Positions 1,782 through 23,889 of a DNA stretch of 64,000 bases are shown here, one piece after another. This DNA is from Roseimicrobium gellanilyticum (GTDB taxonomy: Bacteria > Verrucomicrobiota > Verrucomicrobiia > Verrucomicrobiales > Verrucomicrobiaceae), in the NCBI RefSeq assembly GCF_003315205.1, contig NZ_QNRR01000002.1, positions 1,032,857 to 1,096,856 of the forward strand, read 5' to 3'. A program made the position numbers and the translations under genes. The notes under the pieces were generated by a model that did no database searches, was not told the origin of the DNA, and worked only from the letters and a program-made list of their open reading frames with translations. Numbering within the stretch: the stretch's first letter is position 1; the number at the start of each line of letters is the position of its first letter.

Positions 1782-2335
<554 letters not shown>

Positions 2336-3295: not shown

Positions 3296-3305
3296 CATCA
3301 CACCT

Positions 3306-3952: not shown

Positions 3953-4294
3953 ATGCCCCCACTCATTGTCTCCATCGCCCTGCTCTCCCTTTCCAACGTC
4001 TTCATGACCTTCGCGTGGTATGCCCACCTGAAGGACATGAAGAGCAAGCCGTGGATCATCGCGGCCTTGTTCAGTTGGGGAATTGCCCTGTTTGAGTACC
4101 TGCTTCAGGTCCCGGCAAACCGGATCGGCAGCCAGACGATGAACCTGCCGCAGCTCAAGATCCTGCAGGAGGTGATTACCCTCACGGTATTCGTCCCCTT
4201 TGTGCTCCTCTACATGAAGCAGCCTCTGAAGTGGGACTATCTGTGGGCCGCCATGTGCATGTGCGGGGCAGTGTATTTCATCTTCCGAAAGTAG
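3953..4294 (+). CDS. DUF486 (DMT-like) inner-membrane protein
   Basis: A 113-residue integral membrane protein beginning MPPLIVSIALLSLSNVFMTF. It carries the DUF486 landmarks FAWYAHLKDM (~19-28), SWGIALFEYLLQVPANRIG (~43-61) and QLKILQEVITLTVF (~69-82). Four hydrophobic segments are visible, as expected for this small family related to the drug/metabolite transporter fold. Substrate and role are unknown. The upstream in-frame codons from 3899 are rejected because family members start at this Met and are close to 110 residues. A strong bidirectional terminator follows at 4330-4361. Confidence 0.9.
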   Translation: MPPLIVSIALLSLSNVFMTFAWYAHLKDMKSKPWIIAALFSWGIALFEYLLQVPANRIGSQTMNLPQLKILQEVITLTVFVPFVLLYMKQPLKWDYLWAAMCMCGAVYFIFRK

Positions 4295-4329
4295 CCTTCG
4301 CGCCAACGGGTCAGATGCAGCCAATAAAA

Positions 4330-4361
4330 AAGCGGAAGGCTCCAGACGAAGCCTTCCGCTT
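4330..4361. terminator. Bidirectional rho-independent terminator
   Basis: A perfect 12-bp stem (AAGCGGAAGGCT with AGCCTTCCGCTT) encloses an 8-base loop. It is flanked by AAAAAA on the left and TTTT on the right, so it can end transcription of the DUF486 gene (plus) and of the beta-helix gene at 4379-7492 (minus). Confidence 0.9.
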
Positions 4362-4378
4362 TTCATATCATTCAAAAC

Positions 4379-7300: not shown

Positions 7301-7492
7301 CCCCTCCGTGTAGGCATCGCTTGTCTTTACCCCTCCGGTGACGGTGCCCAAATACATGGGGTGAGCCTCCACCACGACCTCCTTCGGATTCTTGATAGGA
7401 GGGCCCGCGAGAACCGCGGAAGTGAGGCTGCCGAGTGATAGCAAACCGACGGTGCATGCCCGGACCAAACGGGCAGGAGTAGGAATGTACAT
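4379..7492 (-). CDS. Inverse-autotransporter-like barrel plus long parallel beta-helix surface protein
   Basis: A 1037-residue exported protein. After a signal peptide (RACTVGLLSLGSLTSAVLAG, ~10-30) come ~300 residues with outer-membrane beta-barrel character. They include GANVFIDMMDTEADNQFWQLG and GTRYVEVRGNYYIPLS, which match the inverse-autotransporter (intimin/invasin-type) beta domain pattern. A second barrel-like part holds GWDAEIAFLVPGLDRYFDLR and ends near residue 370. From ~420 onward the protein is a long run of 20-25-residue units rich in N-N and G (VQNNEFNEVFG, ISGNTFEGDG, TGNVFHGGF), typical of right-handed parallel beta-helices (pectate-lyase/DUF4347-like passenger). A CGCGGG motif lies near ~635. 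The likely topology is an N-terminal barrel in the outer membrane with the helix displayed outside, perhaps as an adhesin. Binding partner unknown. Confidence 0.72.
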   Translation of the reverse strand: MYIPTPARLVRACTVGLLSLGSLTSAVLAGPPIKNPKEVVVEAHPMYLGTVTGGVKTSDAYTEGNFSIVAPVWSTLGADATLSGDVIYLEPYTSWGERGEVAASLGLGWRHLFGSQSVSALRNYDAPQAGFFDEGIFVGANVFIDMMDTEADNQFWQLGVGLEVGTRYVEVRGNYYIPLSDKQLAEETRTVDTIQRSSTSTSQSVTPTSDPYASGSSVAQNALFTTTATTTISTTTIERLFRRYEEGMEGWDAEIAFLVPGLDRYFDLRFIGGYYKFDNQPFGPQEGGTGNVEGWKAGVEIRPVPAVILTGTWYEDERLTGSDWTAGVQLQVPFEMGDLGDGKNFWSRIGDSFTPRRRHLVERLAEPVRRQNAAIKVANTVDTETNTETKVKRVTKVVSQRPGQVVLEDDIIFVNNGGAVGNGIQAGTAQVDGATGTAERPFDTIVEGANLAGANSNATGKLWTVYTQGGTGIDYEDSVMVSGSTRFTSSYVPIVGLGGRNFGGDTDRPVLYGGFGAFEINTLIVQGYDFRGGIMGGFGPSVIALNPGTLIVQDNLFTMGELPPFGEFPEFPEIEELLPLFLSSVSVLADSDGGTHNIIVQNNEFNEVFGALFVGAGLDLGIFGPPALSALDCGCGGGSSPIVNILATNNIINNAYMAGMYITAGGGSTVNANLSNNFFLGEFGFDGPEFGMATLVETYDGAIANVQLTGNIYEGYFNQVVSGFYSEYESILNATVTGNTILADSEYGVGFGFVAFEGATMTATIANNAISGESYDGMLTLDSFEGATLIASISGNTFEGDGCGEIAIAAKSRDGSTLRADILGNTFVGDFDHALDADKRDWSRMTLTFSNNVLNGEFGRDALKVAAHHYDDEDGDRLKVTITNNQFFGDYDASGIFLLAEHDAVLKGTVTGNVFHGGFEDNAIQLKSQHGGRLAATVADNILSADGVVNDAFLKARSNDGSRLRIKGFDRNLVLGSGTNPDSVGFFFREDGGSKLTVDGTFDPAASNFVSEFFLSPMDVVGNPSGDFFLNGAPVSP

Positions 7493-7730
7493 GTAGGGTG
7501 TTAGGAGAGCTTGGGGGTGAAGCGGGTTGTCTTTTCTTTGGGAGTTGTGCCGTTGTTACGTTAACAGAATTTCCGTATTTATCTCGGGAATTCTTGCAAA
7601 AACCACAAACAATAAACCTTCATTCACCACTCCCCTTTGAGTTAGCATAAGCATAATACCTAAACCCCAGATCTCATTCCGCTTGAGGCTGCGACCACTG
7701 AAGAAACCCAGTCATTTCGGTCACCCGGCG
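7493..7730 (-). promoter_or_regulatory. AT-rich upstream region of the beta-helix gene
   Basis: This stretch is much more AT-rich than its surroundings, especially 7555-7670, and lies just upstream of the minus-strand start at 7492. It must hold the promoter of that gene, but I could not pick one -35/-10 pair with confidence. No coding region is evident. Confidence 0.45.
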
Positions 7731-7759
7731 CAAAAAACCGCCCGGCATCTCCAGCCGGG
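7731..7759 (-). terminator. Rho-independent terminator, copy B of a duplicated gene end
   Basis: On the minus strand a CCCGGC/GCCGGG stem is followed by GGTTTTTTG. It would end transcription of the protease gene at 7855-9249. It closely resembles the terminator at 9381-9403 and belongs to the same duplicated segment. Confidence 0.75.
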
Positions 7760-7836
7760 TGTTTGTCATTTAGCTTCAAGATCCCTGCGAGAGTTACTTC
7801 GCCGCAGGAGGAGCGCCGGGCATGGGCAGCGAGGTA
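7760..7836 (-). pseudogene. Relic of the 3' end of a second copy of the PVC dehydrogenase gene
   Basis: Positions 7794-7829 on the minus strand encode LPMPGAPPAAK plus TAA, identical at peptide level to the last 11 residues of the dehydrogenase gene that ends at 9436. The following bases (GTCATTTAG spacer, then the hairpin) also match the sequence after that gene. Upstream, the match resumes with GAGGTAGG after a deletion of about 20 bases and is then lost. This is a decayed paralogue end and not a functional gene. Confidence 0.85.
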
Positions 7837-7854
7837 GGGTGGCACCGCTCGTCA

Positions 7855-9249
7855 TTAGCGATAGCGGGTGGCACCCTGACTGACGAACTCATCGTGCACC
7901 AGCCTGCGCATTTCCAGCATGGCCGGGATGTACTGCTTCAAGTAAGGAACACGATCGGAACTCTTCATCGACTTGGATTGGTTGGTTGATTCCAAGGTGA
8001 CCGTTGCGAAGAATTCCTGGAAAATCGGAACAGCAGTCGCCATGGAACGCGTGGCACTCGCTGAGCCCAGCTTCTGGTTTACCCGCGCGATCCCGCTGGC
8101 GATCACACTACCAAGGCGGTAACCACTTCCGCCCACGATCACTTCACGCACAATGTAGTCCCCCTTCTTGGTACTGGGCGCGGCAAAACCGCCACGGTTT
8201 GACGTTGGGTTCAAGAAGCAAGCAGCAGCAAGAGTCAGGGTATCCCGGTCAAACGCGCTTAGTTCTGCCAGTGCCATCATCAGTGAAGTGTATTTCATCT
8301 TGCGCCACTTGGTCACCTGCTCGGGACGGATGGCAAACCGGCGCACCTTTTCAAACGTGGTTCCCTTCGCCCAGATGTCACGTTTACCATCGGTTAGATA
8401 GGTTGATACCCCCAGGATCGTCTTCGTACCCCCGAGGACGACAGGACCTCCGCTGTTCCCGGGCACAATTTCACAGTCGATCTCAATCCGGTCTGTTCCC
8501 ACCCCGACAATCTTGCCATCCAACCCTGTGATGACGCTGCCTCCAAGGCTGTTTCCGTAGGCGATAACCTCCTTGTTCAGTTCAGGAACGCTGTCCGCTT
8601 TCCCGATTTCGTACAAGCCAGATGTGGCTTCCACGACCACTTCAAATCTCGCCAGGTCCTCAAGACCGTTGGGCGCATTAGGATCAAAAGTTTCGGACAG
8701 TTCCAAATCGACAGGCAGCGCCAGCTTTTTGCCAGCCGCAGTAGTAATGCTCTCAATCTTCGTGGCGAAGCTACCTGGCTCTCCACACAACACGTGGGCA
8801 TTCGTGTAGACATAGGTGATTTTGTCGGCTTTCGCGATGAAACCTGAACCAACTCCCTTGTCCGTTTTGATGAAGACGAGATGCTGTGGATCGAATGAGG
8901 AAACCACGGCACCGGAAACACCCGGCTGGGCAGGAGCAGCGGGCTGAACTGGAGGAGCAACGGTAGCAGGAGAGCTGGGAGATTCCTGCTTCTTCGGAGG
9001 GGTGTATTTCCCCTTCCAAACTTCAGGCAGGTGTTCGAATGCCAACAAGGAGACTCCCGCATCGTGGGCAATTTTCACCCCTTGCTCAGTCACACTAAGG
9101 ACTGTTGCATTGGTGAAGACCTTGCTTCCGACAACGGACGGCACTTCGATCCTATCGACCTTGCCCTGCCCCACTAAGTTCGCGCTAAAAGCCAAGAGAC
9201 CCACGCAAGCTGTAAGCGTGGACATTAGTCCTGAGGTTTCACGAATCAT
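7855..9249 (-). CDS. Secreted trypsin-like serine protease with N-terminal SLA1-like/beta domain
   Basis: A protein of about 464 residues, counted from the Met at 9249, which puts a signal peptide at the N-terminus (LTACVGLLAFSANLVGQG). Residues ~35-80 (VPSVVGSKVFTNATVLSVTE, then the HLPEVWKGKY end) form a small domain common in Verrucomicrobia that also occurs in the protein at 27581-28501. A Pro/Ala-rich linker follows (~88-112), then a chymotrypsin/DegP-like protease domain: His152 in TNAHVLCG, Asp198 in NGLEDLARF and Ser266 in VPGNSGGPV. No PDZ domain is visible. The C-terminal ~170 residues are alpha-helical and unknown. The longer reading from 9318 adds an Arg-rich N-terminus that would spoil the signal and is rejected. 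Confidence 0.82.
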   Translation of the reverse strand: MIRETSGLMSTLTACVGLLAFSANLVGQGKVDRIEVPSVVGSKVFTNATVLSVTEQGVKIAHDAGVSLLAFEHLPEVWKGKYTPPKKQESPSSPATVAPPVQPAAPAQPGVSGAVVSSFDPQHLVFIKTDKGVGSGFIAKADKITYVYTNAHVLCGEPGSFATKIESITTAAGKKLALPVDLELSETFDPNAPNGLEDLARFEVVVEATSGLYEIGKADSVPELNKEVIAYGNSLGGSVITGLDGKIVGVGTDRIEIDCEIVPGNSGGPVVLGGTKTILGVSTYLTDGKRDIWAKGTTFEKVRRFAIRPEQVTKWRKMKYTSLMMALAELSAFDRDTLTLAAACFLNPTSNRGGFAAPSTKKGDYIVREVIVGGSGYRLGSVIASGIARVNQKLGSASATRSMATAVPIFQEFFATVTLESTNQSKSMKSSDRVPYLKQYIPAMLEMRRLVHDEFVSQGATRYR

Positions 9250-9380
9250 ATGGTTGGGAGTGAAGGTGTGCAGACGATAGATACGGAGAATCCTTAGGAT
9301 ACGTGCACGCAATACCATTATTACTCAACAGAAAGCCGTAATTTTTCGCCTGCCATTTAGTAACCTCCGACAACAAAATC

Positions 9381-9403
9381 CGCCCGGCATGTGCTGCCGG
9401 GCG
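9381..9403 (-). terminator. Rho-independent terminator of the PVC dehydrogenase gene
   Basis: A perfect 9-bp stem (CGCCCGGCA with TGCCGGGCG) with a 5-base loop is followed on the minus strand by GATTTTGTTG. It lies 33 bases after the stop codon of the dehydrogenase gene. Confidence 0.85.
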
Positions 9404-9435
9404 GTAGTCATTTAGATTTAATCTCGCTGCACGAT

Positions 9436-12400
9436 TTACTTCGCGGCAGGAGGAGCTCCGGGCATGGGCAGCTCAAACTTCGGATTGGCCGCGAGGTAGG
9501 CATCCACATCCGCCGTCACGATGATCTTGCCCCACATGATCATCCAGTGACCGGGAAAGGTGCACACGAACTCAAGCTGACCTTCCTTGTCAGGTGCCTT
9601 GAGCTTGAGGGTTTCCTTTTGCCCGGGATTCAGCAGATGGGTGGCATCGACGAAGGGCTGGCCCTTCGGCAGGAACTGGCGGTTGCGTGCCTTCTCCACT
9701 TCGGTGGGGCTCATGGTCTGCGCGGCCATGCCGATGACACCGTGCTTCTCATTGCCCACGACCACGAGGTTGTGCGGCATCACGTCGTCGTTCTCGAAGA
9801 TGATTTCGAACGACTTGCCCTTCTCCACCACAATACGCTGGGTATCAAAGCGGAGCTGCTCATGCACCGTCTTCACAACGAATACCGCCACACTCAGACC
9901 ACGCAGTTCCTTGCGCAGTGCGGTATTCCCCGCGAGTGAGGCCATCTCCATACCGAGCTGATTCACTTCCACAAACGACTGCTCCGAGCGCTTCTCCGCC
10001 GGCACAGACTTCGCATAAGCCAGCACGCTCTGTGCGATGCCTTCCGCCTTGTCCTTGTCCCACGCCGTGCGAGGAAGCTGCATGATGGCCGTGGTGGCGG
10101 CGTTGCGCTCGTTGCCATCAATGACGTGCTTCGAGAGCACCGCAAAGTTTGCCGGGGCATTGTCCGCACCCATGAGAGACAGAGCCTTCAGCGCGGCCTG
10201 GCGTTGCTCGCCTTTCACACTACCGTCATTGAGCAAGGCGGTGATCAGGTGCTGGAACCCCGTGCGCAGCGTGGGATCCGGCACCAGACCGATGCCCTGC
10301 ACCAGAGCTGTGCGCCATTCGCTTTTGTCAGCGGACGCAACCCACACATCATCCGGCTTGCGGTCCTGCACAATGAGCGCGGCCCACACGGAGCGGCGCA
10401 CTTCAGGAAGGTTCGCGGAGCGCGCCAGTGAGGCGAGTTGATCCTTTGCCTTCGTAAGAGCCTCGACCGGGGAAGTGATGAGCATCTTGCCCAGGTCCGA
10501 TGCCGCCTGTGCGGATGCGCCACTCTTCGCATCGATACGCTTGAGCGCGGCCACGATTTCTGTCGCGCGATCGCTCTTGTTGAGCTTCACCAGTTCCTCG
10601 ATGGCCTTGTCCCGGGTGAGCAGGTCGTAGCTTTTGCGTTCCAGCTTGGCATGCAACACGGCAGCCACATTGTTCGGCATGCCCTTGAGCTCATTGTCAT
10701 CCATGCGGCTGAGCAATGCGTCGAGGGTGGCGGGATCGCTGGGCAGCATCTTCTCCTTGGCGCCGGACTGGAGTTGCTTGAGCGTCTCCTTCAGGCAGTA
10801 GTCGATGTAGTAGTCCCCTTCATGCTTGAGCGAGGCGTAGGCCACCTCGAGTGCCTTCGGCACATCTGCGCCGCCATAGAAGCTCGCAGCGCGAATGGCT
10901 TCGAGGCGCACGCGCGGGCTCTCGTCACCAGCTGCCTTCTTGAAGATCTCAAGCGCCTCGGGAATGCGGTCGCGCTGGTAGCACACCACGCGCACAGCCT
11001 GCGCACGGGCACGGGGCTCGGGCGAGGCCAGCACAGTATTGATGAGCTCCTTGTTCACCACGTTGTGCCACTGGTGCACCCAGAGGGCCTCCAGGATGTG
11101 GTGCGCGTCTTCCACCTTCTGCGGGTCGAATTGCTTCACCCACTTCTGCACGGCGGCGACCACGGCCTTGGAGTCATGCTTGTCGAGCTCAATCTTGGCG
11201 CGGATGCGCACGTCGTTCTCGGGCTCCTTCAGCAGGTCGAGCAGCTTCTCGATGGGCTGGCCATCGACCTTCTTCACTTCAAGCAGCGGGCGGCCCTCGA
11301 AGGTCACACGGTAGACACGACCATGGATCTGGTCGCGGTTCGGGTCACGCAGGTGATGCTGCATGTGACCGATGATGGCATTCGACCAGTCAGCAAAGTA
11401 CAGGGAGCCATCCGGAGCCACACTCGCGCAGGAGGGGCGGAAGGTGCCGACCTCCGCAGGGCTGCACTCCACGAGGGTATTCAGCTTCTCCGGCGTGGTC
11501 GAGCCCGGCTTGGTGTACTCATGGTAGAGCGTCTCACCCTTCAGACCGGAGCCCACTTCAGAGAACTTCGCGCGGAAGATGCCCTGCACGCTGATGACAT
11601 TGCAGTTCAGGAAATTGTCGCGGAACTCATCCGGGAAGTGACGGCTGGAAAGAATCGTCGTACCAGCGCACGGACGGGACGGGTGCTGCCAGACGATATC
11701 ATACTTCGAGTGCTTGTTCGGCTCGCTGATGAAGCCGCTGAAGCCGGGGCCGTAGTAGTTGTTGTTGCCTGTGGCGTCTGTGATGATGTCATTGCCCCAG
11801 TAGTCAAAGACGCGGCCGTGCGGATTCGCGAAGCCATACGCGGCATAACGCTCGAACTTGCCCGTGCGGGGCTCATAGCGGTAGATGCAGCCATCCTTGT
11901 TGCGCACGGGACCTTCGGGAGTCTCCACCTGCGTGGCGTGGAAGACACCGTCCGAGCAGTACACGGCACCGCCAGGCTCATAGCAGATGGAGTTCGTTTC
12001 GTGGTGCGAGTCCGCGGCATCCAGACCGCTGAGGATACGCTCAAACTTGTCTGCGCGACCATCGCCATCCGTATCGCGAGCATAGAGGAGATTCGGCGAC
12101 TTCATGACTAGCACGCCATCCTTGTAGAACTGGAATCCGGTGGGGCAGTTCAGGTCATCCATGAAAGGCGTGCACTTGTCCGCCTTGCCGTCGTTGTTGG
12201 TATCTTCGAGCACCAGGAGGCTGTCCCCCTTCGTGCTCCAGGGAGTGCGGCTGGGATAGTTGCGCCACGAAGCGACCCAGAGGCGACCCTTGGTATCAAA
12301 TGCCATCTGCACCGGCTTGATGAGTTCGGGGAACATCTTCTCATCCGCAAAGAGCTGGACCTTGATGCCCTTGGGCGTCTTCATTTTGCCCACCACTTCC

Positions 12401-13536: not shown

Positions 13537-13850
13537 GCAGGGAAACTGAAATGAGGGAAGTCCAATACGGGATGCCAATAGCGGAGTGATCCTGCTTTTT
13601 GACATGGAAAATGAAGTTTTTTTTGGAGCCCCCAACGTAGTCCGCGAGTCCCTTCGCGGTCCGGAGAAGCCAGTGTCGCAAGCCAACAATACAACCTCTT
13701 CAAGCTTGCACTCTGGACAACCCCCGCAGAAATCGCCCGGCACTAGTGAAATGACCGCCAACGCCTGGCGAGGCACTGCGGCCAACACCTCTGGGGGCAG
13801 CGATATCTGGGAGTGAAGCAGTCGCACCGACCTTGCCCGGAGGAGAACAC
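13537..13850. promoter_or_regulatory. Upstream region of the PVC dehydrogenase and glyoxalase genes
   Basis: This is a 314-base divergent intergenic region. The part next to the dehydrogenase (13537-13620) is duplicated at 14285-14354, which implies that it carries that gene's promoter. Copy 1 has an extra 13 bases in front of the start, producing a short tandem of ATTGG. A dispersed 29-base hairpin repeat occupies 13633-13661. The rest, 13662-13840, shows nothing recognisable; the glyoxalase ribosome binding site AGGAGAA is at 13840-13846. Confidence 0.5.
13633..13661. repeat. Dispersed 29-base hairpin repeat, copy 1
   Basis: The 29 bases from CAACGTAGTC to TTCGCGGTC are identical to 18232-18260. 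The core can fold as CCGCGA-6-TCGCGG. No transposase is attached, so it resembles a REP-type dispersed element. Confidence 0.8.
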
Positions 13851-14210
13851 ATGAACCTGCAGAAGATCTACACCTCGCTGCTCACCTCAGATTTGGCGGC
13901 AGCTGAAGACTGGTACACGAAGCTGCTCGGTCGCAGACCGGACAACCGCCCGATGGACACGCTGGTGCAGTGGGAGTTGTTCGATCATGCCGGGTTCATG
14001 CTTTCAAGCAGCGATGAGATTGCCGGCCACGGCGTGTTCTTCCTTTATGTCGCCGATCTCGCGGTCGAACGCCGCCGATTGCAGAGCCTTGGGATCATCC
14101 TCGGTGACGACATCGGAGGCGACTACTCGACACTGGCCCAAGTGCGTGATCCTGATGGCAACCTGATCACACTGGCGTCACCTCCCTCGCGCCCCTTTCC
14201 ACAGGCATGA
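13851..14210 (+). CDS. VOC/glyoxalase-fold protein
   Basis: A 119-residue single-unit vicinal-oxygen-chelate protein starting MNLQKIYTSLLTSDLAAAEDWY. It shows the family pattern: first beta-strand with DL..AE.WY..LLGR (~10-26), LVQWELFDHAGFML (~35-48), and a second half ending DPDGNLITLA (~101-110), where the conserved metal-binding Glu position is replaced by Thr-Leu-Ala. This suggests a non-enzymatic or altered member, such as a binding or resistance-like protein. An AGGAGAA ribosome binding site precedes the ATG at 13851 by 4 bases, so the start at 13833 is rejected. The gene lies inside the segment bounded by the two copies of the dehydrogenase 5' end and opens the accessory plus-strand stretch. 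Confidence 0.85.
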   Translation: MNLQKIYTSLLTSDLAAAEDWYTKLLGRRPDNRPMDTLVQWELFDHAGFMLSSSDEIAGHGVFFLYVADLAVERRRLQSLGIILGDDIGGDYSTLAQVRDPDGNLITLASPPSRPFPQA

Positions 14211-14218
14211 CCGCATCA

Positions 14219-14354
14219 GACCCAGCCACGCGGGACAAGACCCGAAACCAGGCTGGCGAGGAGGGTGTGGAAGTGTCGATTCATGCAGGGAACTGAAATG
14301 AGGGAAGTCCAATAGCGGAGTGATCCTGCCTTTTGACATGGAAAATGAAGTTTT
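14219..14354 (-). pseudogene. Relic of the 5' end and promoter of a second PVC dehydrogenase gene
   Basis: Positions 14284 down to 14219 encode MNRHFHTLLASLVSGLVPRG and two more codons (WV) before TGA. This is a mutated version of the signal peptide of the dehydrogenase at 13536 (MNRRFHTLLAGLVSGLALHG). The 70 bases upstream of the Met match the region in front of 13536 almost base for base, with one 13-base gap. The similarity begins near 14228 and ends at 14354. It cannot make a functional protein. Confidence 0.9.
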
Positions 14355-14413
14355 GTTCTTGCTGCTCGTCCCTCCGACGGCCGACAGGAACACCCTGCCA
14401 AAATCACCACCCT

Positions 14414-14869
14414 ATGAACAATGAAAAGTGGAGCCCAGTCACGCATGAGAACTGCAACCACATGCACGGCCCATTCTATCACGGCACGAAGGTTGAGTTT
14501 GCGATAGGCGATTTGCTGTCACCCGGCCATCCCTCCAACTACGACGAAAGCCGGGTTCTTAACCACCTCTACTTCTCCGCCATCTTGGACCCTGCGATCT
14601 GGGGAGCAGAACTCGCGATGGCGTTGGCAAATTTAGAAGGTCGCGGCCGCATCTACGTCGTCGAGCCAACTGGCACCTTTGAGGACGATCCGAATCTCAC
14701 CAACAAGCGATTTCCTGGTAACCCGACGAAGTCCTATCGCACACGTGATCCACTCAGGATCGTCGGAGTCGTCGAGGACTGGCAGGGACACCCGGTGGAA
14801 GCAGTTCAAGGAATGCTAAATTCCCTTCGAGACCTGAAACGCCGCGGGCTTGCCATCATTGAGGACTAG
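14414..14869 (+). CDS. arr: NAD(+)--rifampin ADP-ribosyltransferase (Arr)
   Basis: A 151-residue Arr enzyme that transfers ADP-ribose from NAD+ to the C23 hydroxyl of rifamycins and inactivates them. Conserved blocks: GPFYHGTKVEFAIGDLLSPG near residues 19-38 (His in YHGT), LYFSAILDPAIWGAELA (~52-68), GRGRIYVVEPTGTFEDDPNL (~76-95), KRFPGNPTKSYRTRDPLRIV (~98-117) and EDWQGHPVEA (~121-130). Length agrees with Arr proteins of mycobacteria and Gram-negative cassettes (about 140-150 residues). The ATG at 14414 gives the usual N-terminus; the extension to 14333 runs into duplicated non-coding DNA. It is a chromosomal arr homologue; whether it confers resistance here is not shown. Confidence 0.93.
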   Translation: MNNEKWSPVTHENCNHMHGPFYHGTKVEFAIGDLLSPGHPSNYDESRVLNHLYFSAILDPAIWGAELAMALANLEGRGRIYVVEPTGTFEDDPNLTNKRFPGNPTKSYRTRDPLRIVGVVEDWQGHPVEAVQGMLNSLRDLKRRGLAIIED

Positions 14870-14902
14870 ACTCCTGCCAAATCCAAGTGACCCAATCAAC
14901 CG

Positions 14903-15967: not shown

Positions 15968-16143
15968 CAGGAGCCGTCCTCTACGGGGATCCACCTACTT
16001 TGTTACCCATCGTCGGTGAACTGGGCATCTCCGCTGACGATTCACTCCTTCAGCCCTACACCGAGCCGTTTGAGCAGAGGTGAGTTCAGGAGCATCGATG
16101 CGATGCTTGCCAATGCAAACTGCTTTGCACTACTATAGTAGAA

Positions 16144-16407
16144 ATGACGCGAGACGAGTACAGACGGCAGACGATCAAGACGCGCCGTTGGTCCAAGTTC
16201 TGGCTTGGGCTGAAATTCTTCGTGTGCCTTCCCCTGCTGCTGCCCATATTCCTCGGAGACATCTTTTCCTTTCCATTTGTCGCTCGCCGTCACGAGAGCT
16301 TTTTCCGGTGGTCGCTCTATATGTTCGCCCAGTCCCTTGCGCCAGCCATCATCATCGGTACATGCATTGGGTACCTTCTCGTATTGGCAATGAGAAGATG
16401 GCACTGA
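16144..16407 (+). CDS. Small membrane protein of unknown function
   Basis: An 87-residue protein with two predicted transmembrane helices: FWLGLKFFVCLPLLLPIFLG (~19-38) and SLAPAIIIGTCIGYLLVLAM (~64-83). A basic N-terminus (RDEYRRQTIKTRRWSK) suggests the N-terminus is cytoplasmic. No family recognised. A weak TTGCCA/TATAGT-like promoter may lie just upstream. It is one of several small plus-strand genes between 13.8 and 22.5 kb with no obvious functional link. Confidence 0.6.
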   Translation: MTRDEYRRQTIKTRRWSKFWLGLKFFVCLPLLLPIFLGDIFSFPFVARRHESFFRWSLYMFAQSLAPAIIIGTCIGYLLVLAMRRWH

Positions 16408-16524
16408 GGTACGCCCCTTCGACCGCCCTGCTTGAGGGACTTGATGGCGTCAACGTTCGTCTGACAAAGGAAGCTCATCAAAGTCCCTTGCGCGGCCCCA
16501 CACAGTAGCTGAGCATCGCGACCC

Positions 16525-17064
16525 ATGGGGGCATCCTTATCCTGGTATGCAGTGCGCGGCAAAACTCCGGAGATGGTCTTGCGAGATTTCGGACTCAGAA
16601 GAGCAGTCAGCAAAGAGTATCGCCATACGCCCTTCCGCGGAGGGCCCCTGCCAAACGGCTGGTTTGTCATGATTCACGGACGGCACGAATTCACGAGTGA
16701 TGAAATGCGGCATCTATCGAGCGCTTGCGAGGTGGTCGCATGTTTTGTGGAAGAGCACGTGATGGTCAGCCGTTCGGCATGCTGGAAAAATGGTGTACAG
16801 GTTTGGGAGGTCACCCACGACTCAGAGGAGAGCGAACATCATCTGGATATCCGGGGCGAGCCGCCTGCCGGTTTTGGAGCGATTCGCGATCGACTGACCA
16901 AACAGCAGAAGGAAGATGATGAGGATGGATGCGTCGACTTCATCTTCAATATTCCAGTGGACCTGGCCGAGGAAGTCACGGGATTCAATCACCTGGGATC
17001 ATCGGACACTGGGTTCGGGAATTTTGTGAAACCGACGTTCCTCCAGAGACTATTCGAACGATAG
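16525..17064 (+). CDS. Hypothetical cytoplasmic protein, 179 residues
   Basis: A soluble protein without signal peptide, starting MGASLSWYAVRGKTPEMVLR. It is acidic in the middle (HDSEESEHHLDIRGEPPAGF; KQQKEDDEDGCVDFIFNIPV) and has the pattern ACEVVACFVEEHVMVSRSAC of a mixed alpha/beta domain. I do not recognise the family, though this kind of protein (WYAVRGK at the N-terminus, long acidic body) occurs as an orphan in many accessory regions and next to polymorphic toxin loci. No toxin gene is visible here. Codon use agrees with coding DNA and the frame is open to a natural stop. Confidence 0.65.
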   Translation: MGASLSWYAVRGKTPEMVLRDFGLRRAVSKEYRHTPFRGGPLPNGWFVMIHGRHEFTSDEMRHLSSACEVVACFVEEHVMVSRSACWKNGVQVWEVTHDSEESEHHLDIRGEPPAGFGAIRDRLTKQQKEDDEDGCVDFIFNIPVDLAEEVTGFNHLGSSDTGFGNFVKPTFLQRLFER

Positions 17065-17108
17065 TGGCGCCTGCACGCGTACGTCTCACAGCCTTTCACA
17101 CCCCATAC

Positions 17109-17507
17109 ATGAGCCCCGCTTCTCCCCCCCAGGAAGTATTTGTCATCAGCTTCTTCACCGAAAAGGCAGGAGCCGCTGCACAAGGCACTGTTTCATTGAT
17201 TGATCAGGTGCCGAAATCCACCTGGACCATCCAGTCCAACGGCAGCCGGCAAACCTTCGACCGCCCCATCTCCGAGGACAGCTTCCGCCATATCTGGGAC
17301 CGGATTTCGGCCCTGACCGAGTTGGACTCCTACCTCTCCACCGATCCCGGTCAGGCGATGTCCTTCACGGACCACTACATTGTCGGAATCATCTATGTGC
17401 TTTCCGGCAAGGAAGGCCGGCGTCTGTACATGATTCCCCACAACTGTTCGGCACAGAGTGTCCTTTCATGGGTCCAGGATATCGAGTCGACCTCAAAGGG
17501 GTCCTGA
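17109..17507 (+). CDS. Hypothetical protein, 132 residues
   Basis: The protein starts MSPASPPQEVFVISFFTEKA and has no signal peptide. Two compact parts are seen: STWTIQSNGSRQTFDRPISE (~35-54), with an alternating beta pattern, and FTDHYIVGIIYVLSGKEGRR followed by YMIPHNC (~86-112). The family is not recognised. It starts 44 bases after the preceding hypothetical gene and 45 bases before the next one, so the three may be one transcript. The upstream in-frame extension to 16929 overlaps the preceding gene and is not used. Confidence 0.6.
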   Translation: MSPASPPQEVFVISFFTEKAGAAAQGTVSLIDQVPKSTWTIQSNGSRQTFDRPISEDSFRHIWDRISALTELDSYLSTDPGQAMSFTDHYIVGIIYVLSGKEGRRLYMIPHNCSAQSVLSWVQDIESTSKGS

Positions 17508-17552
17508 AATCCGATCGCTCGCACCAGGGGCAGCCACCCTGGCTTGCACATC

Positions 17553-18239
17553 ATGGATTCGCTCTTCTCCAGAATGACTGCCTTGCTCGCAAGCACGGTG
17601 CTCCTTCTCCCGATGGTCTGTAGCGAGCAAACACCTTCCGAACGCAAGATGAGTTTTACTGTTCCAACCTTACAACCAGATTCCATCCAATCGTTCGGTT
17701 ACAAATGCCGCTGGATAGCCATTCGCACCGACGATCTTCAAGCCGTCATTTCCACTCTCGGGCTGCAGGATTGCAGAGTGGGTTCGTGGGCGGAGGGCAT
17801 CCAAACCGCCTACAAGTATCCAGACGGGGAAGTCTTCGTCACTCCGCCGGTTAATGGCTACATCCTTTGCGTGTCGCGCTCCCTCCCGGAGTTTCCAACT
17901 TCTGACCTTCCCGACGAAATCACACCGATTCTCAAACGGTTGGCAGCTCGATTCGCTGACGTCCAGTACTTCTTCACCTACCGGGTCTCCGATGGTCAAG
18001 CTTGGGCGCGCTTCACAAACGGCACCTGCACGCGCGCATTCGCCATCTTCCAGGGAGATCTGTCATGGAACAGCGGAGAGCTCACGCCCGTGGAGAAGGG
18101 TCTCGACCTGGAGTTTCCATCTGAGCAGGACGTAATGAAGGTCGCCGGGAACTGGAGTATCGATCCATCCGAGTTCGAGAAGAAGCCCGTAGATGTCACA
18201 CAAGGAATTGTGGGAAAGTTGACGCCTCCTTCAACGTAG
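17553..18239 (+). CDS. Secreted hypothetical protein, 228 residues
   Basis: A signal peptide is visible (MDSLFSRMTALLASTVLLLP, cleavage near VCSEQ). The mature protein contains ..FGYKCRWIAIRTDDLQAVIS (~50-68), DGEVFVTPPVNGYILCVSRS and a C-terminal EFPSEQDVMKVAGNWSIDPS (~190-209). The pattern resembles uncharacterised proteins of accessory regions that report on single residues of a partner; no function can be given. The last three codons fall inside the dispersed 29-base repeat at 18232-18260, so the repeat supplies the stop codon. Confidence 0.65.
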   Translation: MDSLFSRMTALLASTVLLLPMVCSEQTPSERKMSFTVPTLQPDSIQSFGYKCRWIAIRTDDLQAVISTLGLQDCRVGSWAEGIQTAYKYPDGEVFVTPPVNGYILCVSRSLPEFPTSDLPDEITPILKRLAARFADVQYFFTYRVSDGQAWARFTNGTCTRAFAIFQGDLSWNSGELTPVEKGLDLEFPSEQDVMKVAGNWSIDPSEFEKKPVDVTQGIVGKLTPPST

Positions 18240-18260
18240 TCCGCGAGTCCCTTCGCGGTC
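18232..18260. repeat. Dispersed 29-base hairpin repeat, copy 2
   Basis: Identical to 13633-13661. It overlaps the stop codon of the preceding gene and is followed by GAAGCGAAGCGCTGGCTAACGCC, which is not shared with copy 1. Confidence 0.8.
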
Positions 18261-18507
18261 AGGAAGCGAAGCGCTGGCTAACGCCTAGCCTGCATTTGGC
18301 GATCCCTGCATTCGCGTCAGCTAACTCCGGCTCAAATCCCGCAGATCATTTTCGAAAAAAAGCCCATCATTCCTGTATAGTTGCAGGATAAGTCGCTGAT
18401 TTTGCATGCTTTTCTGCAGCACGCGAGCCTCAGGCCCGGAAATAGCCTGCAAAGCTGCAAGCTACTGCGGGGTTGATTTTTTCTGTACTTTTGTAGAAAA
18501 TCTCTAT
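18261..18507 (+). other. Gene-free stretch, possible attI-like or decayed cassette end
   Basis: No gene is seen. The stretch ends directly at the core site GTTAGGC (18508-18514) that opens the first cassette. A TTGATT at 18473 followed about 16 bases later by TAGAAA could be a weak outward promoter reading into the cassettes. No palindromic attC partner for this core site was found upstream, so this could be an attI-like site, but no integrase gene is in the window to support it. Confidence 0.35.
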
Positions 18508-18556
18508 GTTAGGCGTTTCCTCGCGTCTCCTGTGAAAGGAGTCAACCAAGCCACCA

Positions 18557-19006
18557 ATGAAGATTCTAGCGTCACTTCTATTCTTGTTCACCGTGACCGG
18601 AGGGCAGGCAGCAGAGACAGTTCAGGCGGCAGCCGAGCCAATCACCACAGCGGTTCCGCTTCTTTCGCCTCAACACGTTTACAACCTACTCGTTTACGCG
18701 ATTTGTGGTTCTCTTGGTGCCCTCGGACTTCTGCTCGGCCTCGACAAGGTTATCATCATGCTTTTCCGCAAAGGTGACGGCGACGCCATCCAGAAGTATT
18801 CCTCGGACAGCGTCGCCCGCATCCTTCCAATCGTTATCGAGGGCATCACAGTTATTCTCGTCGTCCTCACCATCATCATACTTGGCATCCTCCGTATTAT
18901 CACCGCCGAGGGCACTTTGGGTATTCTCGGTTCGGTCGTCGGATACGTCCTCGGCAAGAGCAACCGGAAATCACCACCGCCAAAAAATGGGAACGGGAAC
19001 GCCTAA
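18557..19006 (+). CDS. Cassette gene 1: membrane protein of unknown function
   Basis: A 149-residue protein with a signal peptide or first helix (MKILASLLFLFTVTGGQAAE), then YNLLVYAICGSLGALGLLLG (~47-66), and a second strong helix (VIEGITVILVVLTIIILGIL, ~93-112) followed by GTLGILGSVVGYVLGKSN. The C-terminus is a basic, Pro/Gly/Asn-rich tail. It is probably a small inner-membrane protein with two or three membrane spans; no family recognised. The TAA stop is inside the GCCTAAC core site of the attC-like element, the hallmark arrangement for integron cassette genes. Confidence 0.75.
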   Translation: MKILASLLFLFTVTGGQAAETVQAAAEPITTAVPLLSPQHVYNLLVYAICGSLGALGLLLGLDKVIIMLFRKGDGDAIQKYSSDSVARILPIVIEGITVILVVLTIIILGILRIITAEGTLGILGSVVGYVLGKSNRKSPPPKNGNGNA

Positions 19007-19120
19007 CCATGCGCCGCAACGGACGGCTCTGAACGTCACAGCCGCCGCGCCTCACGCCACTTTCCCACCACGCAGCGGCAGCGCCAGCCTCCGCCGTCGC
19101 TGAGCTTGGGATTGTTCACC
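19001..19120 (+). other. attC-like recombination site 1
   Basis: The site runs from GCCTAAC (19001-19007) to the next core GTTCACC (19114-19120), about 120 bases. Inside, GACGGC (19022-19027) pairs with GCCGTC (19093-19098), and GCTGAGCTTGGG precedes the right core as in many attC sites. The spacer can be translated, which produces spurious ORFs beginning NHAPQRTAL. Confidence 0.6.
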
Positions 19121-19135
19121 TAAATCCACCACGTC

Positions 19136-19708
19136 ATGGGTCTATTCGTTCATAGCCTCAAAGAGTTGCCAATCACAGCGGAAAGAAGCTACTACTTGTA
19201 TCTCCTGAATGGCGGATGGGCTGGACCTTTGGAGCGCTCAATCGAGCAGAACTACCATGCCATGTCTGACATGGCGTCTCGGAACGACGCTATAGTGATT
19301 CAGGGGTGTGAGCGCTGGCACTTCCAGAACGAGGTCTTCTCTTGGCATCACCTCAATGGCGAGGAGGCCGAAACGTTACTGCCAGCAATCCTGCTCACCA
19401 CAATTCATCCAAGCCGCTTCGCCAACGAGTCCGACCCATATTGGCAGACTGCCAAGCAGTCAGACCATCTTGTCCTCATCCCGCTAAAGGATCACTGCAA
19501 TACTGGGGATGAAGTCGTCACTTTTATCCGCAAGGTGTTTGAAGATATTAAGTCCAAGAAGGCTTTGATTGACTTTCAGGTTGTAGGAGAGATGAGCCCC
19601 AATCGAGGCAAAGCGTTTCTCGACGGGTTAGTCCTACGTCCGACTTTCATGGGGGTGGGCTTCGACTTGAAGACTCTGCCAGAACTATTCAGAAGAAAGA
19701 AACGGTGA
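19136..19708 (+). CDS. Cassette gene 2: hypothetical protein, 190 residues
   Basis: A soluble protein starting MGLFVHSLKELPITAERSYY. Features are RNDAIVIQGCERWHFQNEVF (~49-68), LLPAILLTTIHPSRFANESD (~80-99), HLVLIPLKDHC (~110) and a C-terminal GLVLRPTFMGVGFDLK. The arrangement suggests an alpha/beta domain with a buried VLIPL strand, but no family is recognised. Its ATG lies 16 bases after the GTTCACC core site and its TGA stop lies inside the GGTGAAC site at its end, so the gene fills the cassette completely. Confidence 0.75.
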   Translation: MGLFVHSLKELPITAERSYYLYLLNGGWAGPLERSIEQNYHAMSDMASRNDAIVIQGCERWHFQNEVFSWHHLNGEEAETLLPAILLTTIHPSRFANESDPYWQTAKQSDHLVLIPLKDHCNTGDEVVTFIRKVFEDIKSKKALIDFQVVGEMSPNRGKAFLDGLVLRPTFMGVGFDLKTLPELFRRKKR

Positions 19709-19798
19709 ACAAGAACGCGACGGACGCGAACGAGGCGCTAGCGACGCCCAGCTCCACGTTCACACCGTCCCGACGCTCGGCACAGCTAGACGTCACGC
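19704..19798 (+). other. attC-like recombination site 2
   Basis: The site begins with GGTGAACAA (19704-19712). GGACG (19722-19726) can pair with CGTCC (19766-19770). The right core should be near GTCACGC (19792-19798), one base off the GTTRRRY consensus start, so this end may have decayed. Confidence 0.5.
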
Positions 19799-19807
19799 AT
19801 TAATTCC

Positions 19808-20464
19808 ATGAGCAAATTTCTATCAGACCTCAAGAAGCTAAGGGCCGACTTGAGCGAATGGCTGGTCCACTTCACCAGTGGCGACAATATCGAAGGCGCA
19901 CGCATTCTTTCCAAAATACTATCGGAGGGCAAACTCCGGTCATCTTACTATCCGCCAGCCGTGTGCTTCAGCGAAGCTCCACTAGCTGAGCTGAACAAGC
20001 TCTTCACGCTCTACAGGGCATATAGCAAACCCCGCTTCGCTCCGTTCGGAGTAGCTGTGCGTAAGACATGGTTGTTCAATCAAGGTGGCCGCCCGGTTAT
20101 CTACGGTAAGAAGGACGAACGTGAGGAGCTTCCTGCGAGTGTGAGATTTCGACACGTAGCATACGATCCCGCAAACCACGACTTCACGTGGCTCCGGGAA
20201 TGGAGAGTCGCAGGTGCGACCCTTCCACTTGACCCATCAGAGACAATAATCATCTGTCCCACTGATGCCGATGCTGCTGGCTTGGCATGGGACGTTGAGG
20301 TGGATTATGAATATGAGGGTCCCAACGAGATCAGCACCAGCGCCTGCGTAGTTCGTGATTGGTATTCTGTTACACTGGATGAGGTCAGCCGACTCAAGAC
20401 GCACTCGGACGAAATACTCGTTAAGGCTCTTTCAATGCAGAAACTCCGCACTGAAGCGCAATAG
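19808..20464 (+). CDS. Putative AbiGi-like (DUF2743) phage-resistance antitoxin family protein
   Basis: A 218-residue soluble protein. The order LSEWLVHFTSGDNIEGARIL (~16-35), KILSEGKLRSSYYPPAVCFS (~37-56), EAPLAELNKLF, FAPFGVAVRKTWLFNQGGRP followed by VIYG (~77-100) and DFTWLREWRV matches the outline of the AbiGi/DUF2743-DUF2971 group. These proteins have an ADP-ribosyltransferase-like fold with HFT near the start, CF.E.PL in the middle and an FGV...W...G..PV.Y block. AbiGi is the antitoxin-side gene of the lactococcal AbiG abortive infection pair; the AbiGii partner is not visible here. An ADP-ribosyltransferase toxin or an orphan antitoxin are alternatives. It follows the second attC-like site, so it may be a third cassette. 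Confidence 0.55.
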   Translation: MSKFLSDLKKLRADLSEWLVHFTSGDNIEGARILSKILSEGKLRSSYYPPAVCFSEAPLAELNKLFTLYRAYSKPRFAPFGVAVRKTWLFNQGGRPVIYGKKDEREELPASVRFRHVAYDPANHDFTWLREWRVAGATLPLDPSETIIICPTDADAAGLAWDVEVDYEYEGPNEISTSACVVRDWYSVTLDEVSRLKTHSDEILVKALSMQKLRTEAQ

Positions 20465-20465
20465 C

Positions 20466-20678
20466 GCCTGATTAAAATGCGATTGCTCGTGGTGAGCATG
20501 GAAACGTCCGGGGCAAAGATGCCTTGTGGAAATACTTTCGAGAGAACAAGGACAAGAGTTGGAGTAACGCTCTCGGCGCGCATGATTTGCTTTGACCACT
20601 GAGCCATCTCCCTTCGCGGCTGCGCATTGACCGCTAGGCGGTACTGGACGCTCCAGCCATTCCCGCTATTCTCGCGCC
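20466..20678 (+). other. Gene-free stretch after the cassettes
   Basis: It begins GCCTGAT (20466-20472) right after the stop of the AbiGi-like gene, two mismatches from the complement of GTCACGC at 19792, so a decayed attC end is possible. The remainder shows no gene and only TCCCTTCGCGGC in common with the dispersed repeat. Confidence 0.3.
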
Positions 20679-21227
20679 ATGCGCCCGCTTCGATATTCCA
20701 TCAACCTCACCCTGGACGGATGCTGCGACCATCAGGCAGGGGTCATGCCAGACGAAGAGATGCATCGTCACTCGACCGAGCTCATCAGGCAGGCGGATGC
20801 TCTTCTCTTTGGCCGGGTGACGTATGAGATGATGGAGATCGCGTTTCGTCCGGCGTGGACGGGAGAGATGCCAGCTTGGATGGAACCCTTCCGCAACACC
20901 ATCGACGCGGCGAAGAAATACGTCGTGTCGAGCACACTTCCCCAAGTCGATTGGAACGCGGAATTCCTGCGCGGGGATTTGGCGGAGGCCGTTCAGCAAC
21001 TCAAGAACGAGCCTGGCAACGGACTATTCACCGGTGGCGTAAAACTCCCCATGGCCTTGGCAGAACTGGGATTGATCGACGAATACGAATTCATCGTGCA
21101 TCCCAGGATTGCAGGCCACGGACCGTCGTTATTCGCGGGCCTATCGAAGTGTGTCGATTTGAAACTTGTGAGCCAGAAAGAGTTCGCCTCGGGCGCAGTG
21201 GCGATGCAGTATGAGCCGAGAAGGTAG
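20679..21227 (+). CDS. RibD-C/dihydrofolate reductase-like family protein
   Basis: A 182-residue member of the RibD C-terminal/dihydrofolate reductase-like group. The landmarks are RYSINLTLDGCCD (~5-17), IRQADALLFGRVTYEMM (~36-52), KYVVSSTLPQVDWNAEFLRG (~81-100), GNGLFTGGVKLPMALAELGL (~113-132) and DEYEFIVHPRIAGHGPSLFA (~134-153). These proteins bind NADPH and act on small pteridine-like or unknown compounds; most are uncharacterised and are not the essential folate enzyme. The length and motif order are complete. It is on the plus strand, 9 bases ahead of the next small gene. Confidence 0.88.
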   Translation: MRPLRYSINLTLDGCCDHQAGVMPDEEMHRHSTELIRQADALLFGRVTYEMMEIAFRPAWTGEMPAWMEPFRNTIDAAKKYVVSSTLPQVDWNAEFLRGDLAEAVQQLKNEPGNGLFTGGVKLPMALAELGLIDEYEFIVHPRIAGHGPSLFAGLSKCVDLKLVSQKEFASGAVAMQYEPRR

Positions 21228-21236
21228 GTGTAGCAC

Positions 21237-21713
21237 ATGAAACCTGCTTACGGCTGGCTCTGTGGTCGAGACTTCCGGAGCGAATGGTTCCACACGCGAG
21301 CTGGTGGTGAGATGGTCCGATTCCGTGACTACGAGAAGTTGCCTCATGACATTGTCGGACATCCCCCGGGATTCGAATGGTTCTGTCGGGAGCACGCCGC
21401 CGCCGCACGCGTGTTGTCGCATTTGGATTCTGCCGACGCCCTGATTGAACTGCAACGACAGTTTGGCAGTTTCCCCAAGAACATCGAACCATCGCTTATG
21501 CGTGCCCCTTCCTTGCGGGTGCTGGAGGTTGGGCCGCAGCGGTCACGAGTGCTGGCTGTGATTCAGCAAGCGACAGGACGCACCGCGACTGAAGCCCTGA
21601 TCTCACTCCGCGCAGCCCCATTCGAGTTGGCTCGAGGATGGCCCGCCTCGTTTCAAAGCTGGCGGATAGAATTGGAATCTGCCGGAGCTCGTATCGAAAT
21701 CCGATACGACTAA
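21237..21713 (+). CDS. Orphan protein with a ribosomal L7/L12 C-terminal-like domain
   Basis: A 158-residue protein with two parts. The first ~95 residues (KPAYGWLCGRDFRSEWFHTR and so on) are unfamiliar. The last ~55 (LAVIQQATGRTATEALISLR, then the E.ARGWPASFQSWRIELESAGARIEIR end) follow the L7/L12 C-terminal pattern: VI...TG...EA..L....P, then a helix and ..LE.AGA.IEI. In ribosomes that domain recruits translation factors; a free-standing copy with an unrelated front is seen in bacteria but not understood. No lysine-rich factor-binding face is conserved (the usual KPVKEGV... is replaced), so a ribosomal role is doubtful. Confidence 0.65.
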   Translation: MKPAYGWLCGRDFRSEWFHTRAGGEMVRFRDYEKLPHDIVGHPPGFEWFCREHAAAARVLSHLDSADALIELQRQFGSFPKNIEPSLMRAPSLRVLEVGPQRSRVLAVIQQATGRTATEALISLRAAPFELARGWPASFQSWRIELESAGARIEIRYD

Positions 21714-21787
21714 ATTTCACGCAGTATCCTTCCCATCCTTTGTTTGGCGTGAATTGGAGAAACCGTAAATCAATACAGCAAATCGCC

Positions 21788-22519
21788 ATGGACATCGACA
21801 AGGTTATTGAGGCTGCTAACCGCAAAGGTCTGACACTCCATGAGGACTTCATCCGCATGGTTGCAAAAACCACGGTTGACATTCGATTGGCTGGTAACGC
21901 CGGCGAGTTCCTGGGAAGCCGGTTCGGCGGCGCTCCAGTTCTCCCGCCTGATTTTAACTGGCCCAGGCATGAGGTAGGGACCTACCAGTTCCTCGGTCAG
22001 ATCAATTTTTCCGAGATCGAGTCGGCGCCATCAGAACTGCCTGCCACAGGATTGCTAAGTCTATTCTTCGCAACGGATCCCAACAACGAGATTTTCTGGG
22101 GCGACCCGGGCTATGTCCTTGGCTACTACTCACCCGATACTACGGAAGCGATCGCCCACCGCGCGCCTGATGCTTCCGAGCCACCGTCCTTAAAAGTCCT
22201 CCTGCAGAAGTCCGTGAGCCTGCCAGGCTCTCCTTTTCTAAGTTTCAACTGGCCCTTTTCTGACGAAGTTGAGGACGTCTTTTTTCACGAACTTCCAGAG
22301 GAGCTGGGAAAGGCGTCTGACTACCTTCTTGGGTATCCTTCGTTCAACACGCTGGCATATGACCCCACCCCCGAGGGTGGTTGGATTTCATTGATCACGC
22401 TGCAATCTCATGACCAGCTGGGCTGGAACTGGCACGACGGTGACAAGCTGATGGTATTCATTGAGAAGGAGAAGCTTGCAGCATGTGATTTCACCAACCT
22501 CATCTGTGACGCAGGCTAG
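21788..22519 (+). CDS. DUF1963 (YwqG-like) protein
   Basis: A 243-residue protein of the DUF1963/YwqG family. Family marks are GSRFGGAPVLPPDFNWPRHE (~42-61), YQFLGQINFSEI (~66-77), GLLSLFFA (~89-96), FHELPEELGKASDYLLGYPS (~172-191) and QLGWNWHDGDKLMVFIEKEK (~212-231). The C-terminal part with W.WHDGD..M.FI is typical. The structure of YwqG is known as a beta-rich fold, but the role is not. The start at 21788 (MDIDKVIEAANRK) is used; the extension to 21638 overlaps the preceding gene. It ends the plus-strand accessory stretch. Confidence 0.88.
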   Translation: MDIDKVIEAANRKGLTLHEDFIRMVAKTTVDIRLAGNAGEFLGSRFGGAPVLPPDFNWPRHEVGTYQFLGQINFSEIESAPSELPATGLLSLFFATDPNNEIFWGDPGYVLGYYSPDTTEAIAHRAPDASEPPSLKVLLQKSVSLPGSPFLSFNWPFSDEVEDVFFHELPEELGKASDYLLGYPSFNTLAYDPTPEGGWISLITLQSHDQLGWNWHDGDKLMVFIEKEKLAACDFTNLICDAG

Positions 22520-22620
22520 GTGCGCATCGGCTGGGCACAGGAGCAGCAGGAAACGAAAAGATTTGCCGATGGAAGTGGCTTTTCCTGTCCGATTTCCCTA
22601 TCCTGTGACCTTTCCCCAGC

Positions 22621-23889
22621 ATGACCTCACGCCGCACCTTCCTCAGAAATTCTGGTCTCGTCCTCGGTGCTGCCGCCCTGCCGGCTGCTGCCCAGACCAC
22701 CAGTCCGCAGAAGACCGTCCTGCTGCATTGTGGCTGGGCGACGAAGAACATCGGTGACATCGGCCACACGCCGGGGACGCTGCGTTTTCTGGAGCAGTAT
22801 CTTCCGGGGGCCAAGGTCATCCTCTGGGCGGCCAATACCAATGAAGCGGTGGATGCGATGCTGATGAAGCGATTTCCGAAGCTGGAAATCGTGAAGGGCT
22901 CGCTATCCAAGGAAGACGGTGCTGTCGCGGATGCGATCAAGCGGTCAGACTTTTTCCTGCGCGGTCCTGGCATGGGACAGCCCACCGATTTCATGAAGTA
23001 TTGCGACAAGGCTGGCAAGCCCTGGGGCCTGCAGGCCCAGTCGTACTTCCCGGACATGGTCACAGGCAAGGGTGCGGAAGAGCGCATCGCCTTGCTCAAC
23101 AGCGCCGCCTTCATCTACTGCCGCGATTCGAAGACACTCAAATTGCTTCAGGATACCGGTGTGAAGCCACCTGTCCTCGAGTGGGCACCCGATGGCTGCT
23201 TCGGCATCGATGTCCGTGATGAGGAGAAAGCGCTCGCCCGATTGAAAAAGCATGGATTGGAGGAAAAGAAATTCATCACCATCCAACTCCGCACCCACTC
23301 CCCCACCAGCCCCGGCGTGGATGACAAGCGCCCGCAGAAGCTGAACCCGCTGCACCCCACTCCGGAGAACATCGCCGACGACACCCGTCGCGCGAAGGTG
23401 TATCAGGACCTGATTGCCATGTGGGTGAAGGAGACCGGCTGGAAGGTGGTGATTGCTCCCGAGGTCTACAAGGAGATGGAGTACAACAAGAAGTTCATTT
23501 ACGACACGCTGCCCGACGACCTCAAGAAGCACGTGGTGAACTTCGACGAGTTCTGGAACGTGGATGAGGCCTGCTCCTTCTACGCCCGCGCCCACACCGT
23601 CATCTGCCACGAGCCGCACACCCCCATCATGGCTCTGGCCATGGGCACGCCGATCATACACACCTTCTCCGAGTTCCACTCGCCCAAGTGCTGGATGTTC
23701 AAGGACATCGGTCTCGAAGAATGGGCGCCGGAATTCGACGCCACACCCGCGAGCAAGATGTTCGAGATCCTGATGGGCATCCACAAGGACTACCCCGCCG
23801 CCCAGGCGAAGGTGAAGAAAGCCATGGCCTACGTCGAGGAGAGAGCGCAGTCCCAGATGAAGGTGCTGAAGGGTGTAATCAAGGCGTGA
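22621..23889 (+). CDS. Polysaccharide pyruvyl transferase family protein, Tat-exported
   Basis: A 422-residue protein with a Tat signal (TSRRTFLRNSGLVLGAAALP, residues 2-21). The core belongs to the polysaccharide pyruvyl transferase (WcaK/CsaB-like) superfamily. It has a GT-B-like N-terminal half (NIGDIGHTPGTLRFLEQYLP, ~42-61), RGPGMGQPTDF in the middle and a C-terminal half with ARAHTVICHEPHTPIMALAM (~322-341), GTPIIH and FSEFHSPKCWMFKDIGLEEW (~349-368). Classical members add pyruvate ketals to cell-surface sugars from phosphoenolpyruvate inside the cell. An exported member is therefore odd: either it uses a different donor or it has become a binding protein. Such Tat-tagged members occur in Planctomycetes and Verrucomicrobia. 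Confidence 0.8.
   Translation: MTSRRTFLRNSGLVLGAAALPAAAQTTSPQKTVLLHCGWATKNIGDIGHTPGTLRFLEQYLPGAKVILWAANTNEAVDAMLMKRFPKLEIVKGSLSKEDGAVADAIKRSDFFLRGPGMGQPTDFMKYCDKAGKPWGLQAQSYFPDMVTGKGAEERIALLNSAAFIYCRDSKTLKLLQDTGVKPPVLEWAPDGCFGIDVRDEEKALARLKKHGLEEKKFITIQLRTHSPTSPGVDDKRPQKLNPLHPTPENIADDTRRAKVYQDLIAMWVKETGWKVVIAPEVYKEMEYNKKFIYDTLPDDLKKHVVNFDEFWNVDEACSFYARAHTVICHEPHTPIMALAMGTPIIHTFSEFHSPKCWMFKDIGLEEWAPEFDATPASKMFEILMGIHKDYPAAQAKVKKAMAYVEERAQSQMKVLKGVIKA

Follow-up and report, generated by a model that had tools for sequence, protein, structure and literature searches.

Probable integron gene cassettes in an apparently decaying CALIN of Roseimicrobium gellanilyticum

Two adjacent genes in the window (the whole stretch of 64,000 nucleotides of Roseimicrobium gellanilyticum DNA analysed here) are each enclosed by an inverted pair of core-like sequences. 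What kind of element put them there? The sequence-only reading took them for integron-like cassettes and, as the second pair departs from the textbook core, proposed a divergent recombination system. We believe, with a probability of roughly 85%, that both genes sit in integron gene cassettes (cassettes 1 and 2) of an apparently decaying CALIN, in a genome without a detectable intI gene. This is a known kind of element, and a new recombination system is not needed. The features under discussion are as follows.

18508-18514, + strand: core site GTTAGGC, left end of cassette 1, reverse complement of 19001-19007.
18509-19114, + strand: probable cassette 1, from the core pair and attC homology.
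18557-19006, + strand: ORF of 149 aa; hydrophobic segments are seen by eye, and no family match exceeds its cut-off.
19001-19120, + strand: attC1, type A; R'' 19001-19007, L'' about 19016-19027, L' about 19093-19105, R' 19114-19120.
19115-19792, + strand: probable cassette 2, from the core pair GTTCACC 19114-19120 / GGTGAAC 19704-19710.
19136-19708, + strand: ORF of 190 aa without assigned family; scattered relatives in Microcoleus, Micavibrio and Hyphomicrobiales MAGs.
19704-19798, + strand: attC2, an apparently damaged type-B site, from partial alignment to an attC of genome G234; R' GTCACGC.
19808-20464, + strand: ORF of 218 aa, AbiGi-like, below the Pfam cut-off.
20633-20639, + strand: GCTAGGC, aligned to GTTAGGC of the same-genus genome G387.

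Read directly from the sequence, with the cores rechecked, the first pair is GTTAGGCGTT (18508-18517) with AACGCCTAAC (18998-19007), and the second is TTGTTCACC (19112-19120) with GGTGAACAA (19704-19712); in each pair the two arms are exact reverse complements. Both genes have their stop codon inside the second arm (TAA 19004-19006 of the 149-residue ORF and TGA 19706-19708 of the 190-residue ORF). On both points the earlier description was accurate. The core at its end point is GTCACGC (19792-19798), not GTT. The arrangement by which an integron gene cassette is recognised, a gene followed by an attC with self-complementary cassette ends, is present, and the expected G^TT cut position lies after G18508. 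The cassette nature of the segment and the boundaries at 18508 and 19114 are supported; the limits of cassette 2 are to be held less firmly.

Can the pairs be accidental? Among 167 mechanically called ORFs of at least 100 residues (89 on the + strand, 78 on the - strand), an exact bounding pair of the form GTTNNNN / NNNNAAC is present in only two, the 149- and 190-residue ones. On the + strand these two compare with 0.7 expected, and at least two occurred in 13.5% of shuffles; on the - strand none was observed versus 0.96 expected. For both strands together, two pairs versus 1.65 expected is chance level, in a count that ignores the adjacency of the pairs and their longer arms. Judged by this count, and by the failure of the generic attC models on the window sites described below, chance inverted repeats could flank two ordinary chromosomal genes. 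We consider this very improbable; it is contradicted at the first site, where the homology to attC sites of relatives stops at both cores. The observation stands above chance because of this homology of 19001-19120, and not because of the repeats.

The homology comes from a nucleotide search of the 59 family genomes in which at most five candidate places per genome were scored: at least 15 of the 58 other genomes have a homologue of positions of about 19000-19116, with 69-77% identity (E 8.5e-16 in G429). G414, G437 and G429 each have an intI at a distance of 1.2 to 3.7 kb from the homologous site. The boxes CTAACCATGCGCTGCAGCGAAC and GTCGCTGAGCTTGGGGTCGTT are common to type-A sites with small changes only. 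A family-specific covariance model (R3), built from 12 type-A sites of relatives with the window left out, yet with 11 of the 12 selected by likeness to the window, matches 19001-19120 over its full length and with exact ends (87.3 bits, E 1.3e-18). The same model has matches in 39 of the 59 family genomes, the window's own included. By its sequence, 19001-19120 is a genuine integron attC.

The attC sites nonetheless appear to be decaying. attC1 differs from its relatives in the L'' box and beside R'. For its bottom strand two hairpins are predicted at -29.4 kcal/mol, with 11 of 200 shuffles equally good; the bottom strands of three relatives' sites are predicted to form a single hairpin from R'' to R' (-35.3 to -41.8 kcal/mol), which is absent from the attC1 prediction. 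The L'' variant is also found in the other attC cluster of the genome (L074:9028-9087); it may be old in this host, so that part of the apparent decay would be a host variant. As a separate observation, the start of cassette 1 past the core (18507-18553) resembles cassette starts of the family (L117 at E 4e-7, L116 at E 8e-6, others weakly), and type-A cassettes may have a common 5' leader.

Two generic attC models were made here. R1 is based on 14 attC sites (12 from plasmid-borne arrays and 2 from Verrucomicrobiota) and detects arrays at intI loci of the phylum. R2 is based on 42 sites, 39 of them from phylum intI loci and with the attC1 homologues outside the training set; its helices covary strongly (0.451 versus 0.139 shuffled). 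Neither window site scored with R1 or R2, the best matches of which elsewhere in the window reach 9.8 and 12.1 bits; another pairing at 19704-19764 gives 6.8 bits. In relatives, the site homologous to attC1 is also an R2 match at E <= 0.01 in 9 of 15 genomes, with no such match in the other 6. attC matches at E <= 0.1 occur in 35 of 40 family genomes. The covariance check thus gave a divided answer, negative for the generic models and positive for R3 at the first site.

The question of a divergent recombination system can be addressed through the cores of related arrays. In 71 of 82 cassettes (23 locus-strands) the four variable core positions of one end all match those of the other, and at the 12 intI loci this is so in 67 of 73; the mean agreement over the 82 is 3.76 of 4, versus 1.92 for shuffled ends. 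Self-complementary cassette ends are therefore the normal signature of related integrons. The core sequence is given as GTTRRRY in PMC8876359; this pattern fits only 20 of 123 R' cores of the related arrays (12 of 102 at the 12 intI loci), where GTTC is the commonest class (55 of 123, and 47 of 102 at the intI loci). One might propose that the cassettes come from a system that has a recombinase of its own and a core other than GTTRRRY, given the second core GTTCACC, the third, GTCACGC, and a genome without intI above the cut-off. Against this stand the frequency of GTTC just given, the occurrence of type-A and type-B sites at loci with TIGR02249 integrases, and the XerC/XerD-like character of the integrase-like matches of this genome (see below). 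We give such a system almost no credence, and the inference drawn earlier from the second core pair is not supported.

Strict scans for GTTRRRY/RYYYAAC pairs with complementary arms found few sites at phylum intI loci, because the textbook core was demanded, and were dropped. At an intI locus of G186, direct repeats with inverted arms (ATTCAACATC...GTTGAGC) were seen in L054 (18292-19258).

Is there an integrase in the genome? The assembly is 99.73% complete (32 contigs), and in the whole of it no gene matches the integrase model TIGR02249 over its cut-off of 265 bits. The best integrase-like candidate is a gene with two separate partial matches (82.1 and 41.5 bits); we read this gene as XerC/XerD-like. 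The absence noted in the sequence-only reading thus extends to the whole assembly; intI is nonetheless present in 20 of the 59 family genomes over the cut-off and in 22 at E <= 1e-60, and of 387 genomes sampled from the phylum, 107 have an integrase that exceeds the cut-off. The intI gene that marks a complete integron being undetectable throughout the assembly, the cassettes are assigned to a CALIN, i.e., an attC cluster without integrase.

The genome has a second and larger attC cluster about 0.8 Mb from the window locus (C2:215086-218433, or L074 at about 7087-10434), where R2 finds four attC sites and R3 one more. The leader of cassette 1 (18371-18513, + strand) resembles L074:8333-8475 (63% over 145 columns), and both end at a GTTAGG core; among the loci compared, this leader matches nowhere except L074. 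It may be the remnant of an attI, an attC that has decayed, or another element. That 18371-18508 is a cassette-landing site of its own kind in intI-less genomes, served by an integrase in trans, seems very improbable to us. A variant of our explanation has more weight: an integrase elsewhere could have inserted the cassettes at a secondary (attG-like) site, with no former complete integron here. It fits a genome with two separate attC clusters, and off-target insertion is named as one CALIN origin, beside loss of intI and rearrangement, in PMC8618304. The likeness of the two leaders is what a random target would not explain, and we hold this variant as a tentative one, at somewhat less than an even chance.

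attC2 is a weaker case than attC1, being, by sequence, only in part similar to the second attC type of the family. Its 3' arm (19747-19793) is 82% identical over 49 columns to an attC of G234 that stands at an intI locus (L040:3916-4042), with likeness also to G414; its 5' arm carries about 22 extra bases. None of R1, R2 and R3 gives it covariance support. With the R' core GTCACGC, for which no R'' partner was seen by eye after 20464, this suggests another arrangement: cassette 1 would be real, and 19115-20632 one non-cassette insert with the 190-residue and AbiGi-like genes. Such an insert would leave aside both the self-complementary 9-bp ends that flank the 190-residue gene and the match to the G234 attC arm; we regard it as unlikely but worth keeping in mind. 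The region of the 218-residue ORF is a possible third cassette; a search of 19793-20632 by eye and by BLAST against the compared loci gave no recognised attC.

The same-genus genome G387 (a single contig, in which nothing matches intI at E <= 1e-60) has the flanking genes in common with the window. Similarity ends at about 16083 and resumes at 20630, and window positions 16084-20629 correspond in G387 to unrelated DNA with other small genes. A tblastn search with the three window genes gave no match in either of the G387 stretches compared, two in number. The breakpoint reads CACCGTTAGGC in G387 and GACCGCTAGGC in the window, and the homology restarts three bases before the GTTAGGC/GCTAGGC core. 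No attC stands directly upstream of the G387 GTTAGGC, and this core at the breakpoint is suggestive only. The replaced G387 segment is larger than the cassettes, and no exact empty site was found. A type-B attC can be read in a neighbouring variable segment of G387 (R3 19.6 bits, E 0.022), and the syntenic segment contains a weak type-A-like R3 match (17.5 bits, E 0.066); R2 with filters off gives at best 12.6 bits on G387, with partial pairing.

Some other differences in this region deserve mention in their own right. The window carries an Arr (rifampin ADP-ribosyltransferase) gene at 14333-14869 (NCBIfam NF033144, 207.9 bits), and the segment around it (13630-14879) also differs from G387, in which the type-B attC stands there. 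Window positions 14226-14357 also match the G387 stretch that aligns just before 13629, and a piece of about 130 bases seems to be duplicated around an ORF that we read as glyoxalase-like. An exact 25-base hairpin-like repeat, GTAGTCCGCGAGTCCCTTCGCGGTC, is found at 13637-13661 and 18236-18260, in the same orientation and bracketing 4.6 kb; the genome contains six exact copies, and G387 three inexact ones.

Conserved gene order in distant relatives, which would have spoken against cassettes, was not observed. No match to the 149-residue gene turned up in 57 of the 58 other family genomes, its lone family relative being a partial weak match in G434 (E 4.4e-5). The 190-residue gene has a single distant match in a protein search of 287 other genomes of the phylum (a set that does not include G387). 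Three relatives of the latter, at 39-56% identity, lie on genome contigs of MAGs from other phyla, with none in viral contigs or plasmids; this scattered distribution fits mobile cargo. No attC match was found at the gene in the three relatives, and one 25.6-bit attC site lies 2.7 kb from the gene in one of them (L158). The 218-residue ORF matches AbiGi (Pfam PF10899) at 14.2 bits and E 0.046, short of the gathering score of 22.4, and the PADLOC AbiGi model at E 0.0058. An Rfam search of 16000-23000 gave no match up to E 1.

Our explanation is based on the core pairs, the homology of attC1, the lack of an intI over the cut-off, the replacement of the segment in G387 and the predicted loss of the single hairpin. 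Each cassette, a gene with its attC, would have been excised as a circle and joined at the G^TT core by IntI. Because of the circle step, the two ends are reverse-complementary within a cassette and neighbouring cores are different. We presume that an IntI of this family moved the cassettes, that cassettes 1 and 2 are of one kind, and that recombination has stopped; the intI would have disappeared, instead of working from a different locus or cell.

CALINs and the two-site threshold are described in PMC9024848, and two attC sites are needed by default in IntegronFinder 2. As in a CALIN, the window has two cassettes, no detectable intI, and in attC1 a homologue of sites in intI-bearing relatives; it differs in that just one of its attC sites, attC1, is recognised by a covariance model, and by a family-specific one only; attC2 shows partial similarity. 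PMC12444791 presents an intI-less cluster of two cassettes in Xanthomonas (pv. citri), with genes missing from the other genomes analysed there; it is similar in the lack of intI and in the two cassettes kept, and differs in belonging to another phylum and in that the window attC fold appears lost. The integron of G234, from the same family, has an intI (67-1005 of L040) and attC matches at 2022-5423. Each of the five cassettes between its model matches has self-complementary ends; three have GTTC cores (such as GTTCGGC and GTTCGCC) and two have GTTA cores. Its own type-B attC resembles part of attC2; unlike the window, it retains intI, and its attC sites are scored by R2.

Among the titles listed in literature searches, none was on Verrucomicrobiota integrons; the phylum is already among the integron-bearing ones in PMC8618304. 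The element reported here is an ordinary remnant, yet integron parts are widespread in this Verrucomicrobiota family. Such cassettes, decayed ones above all, would escape an annotation that insists on GTTRRRY or on a generic attC model.
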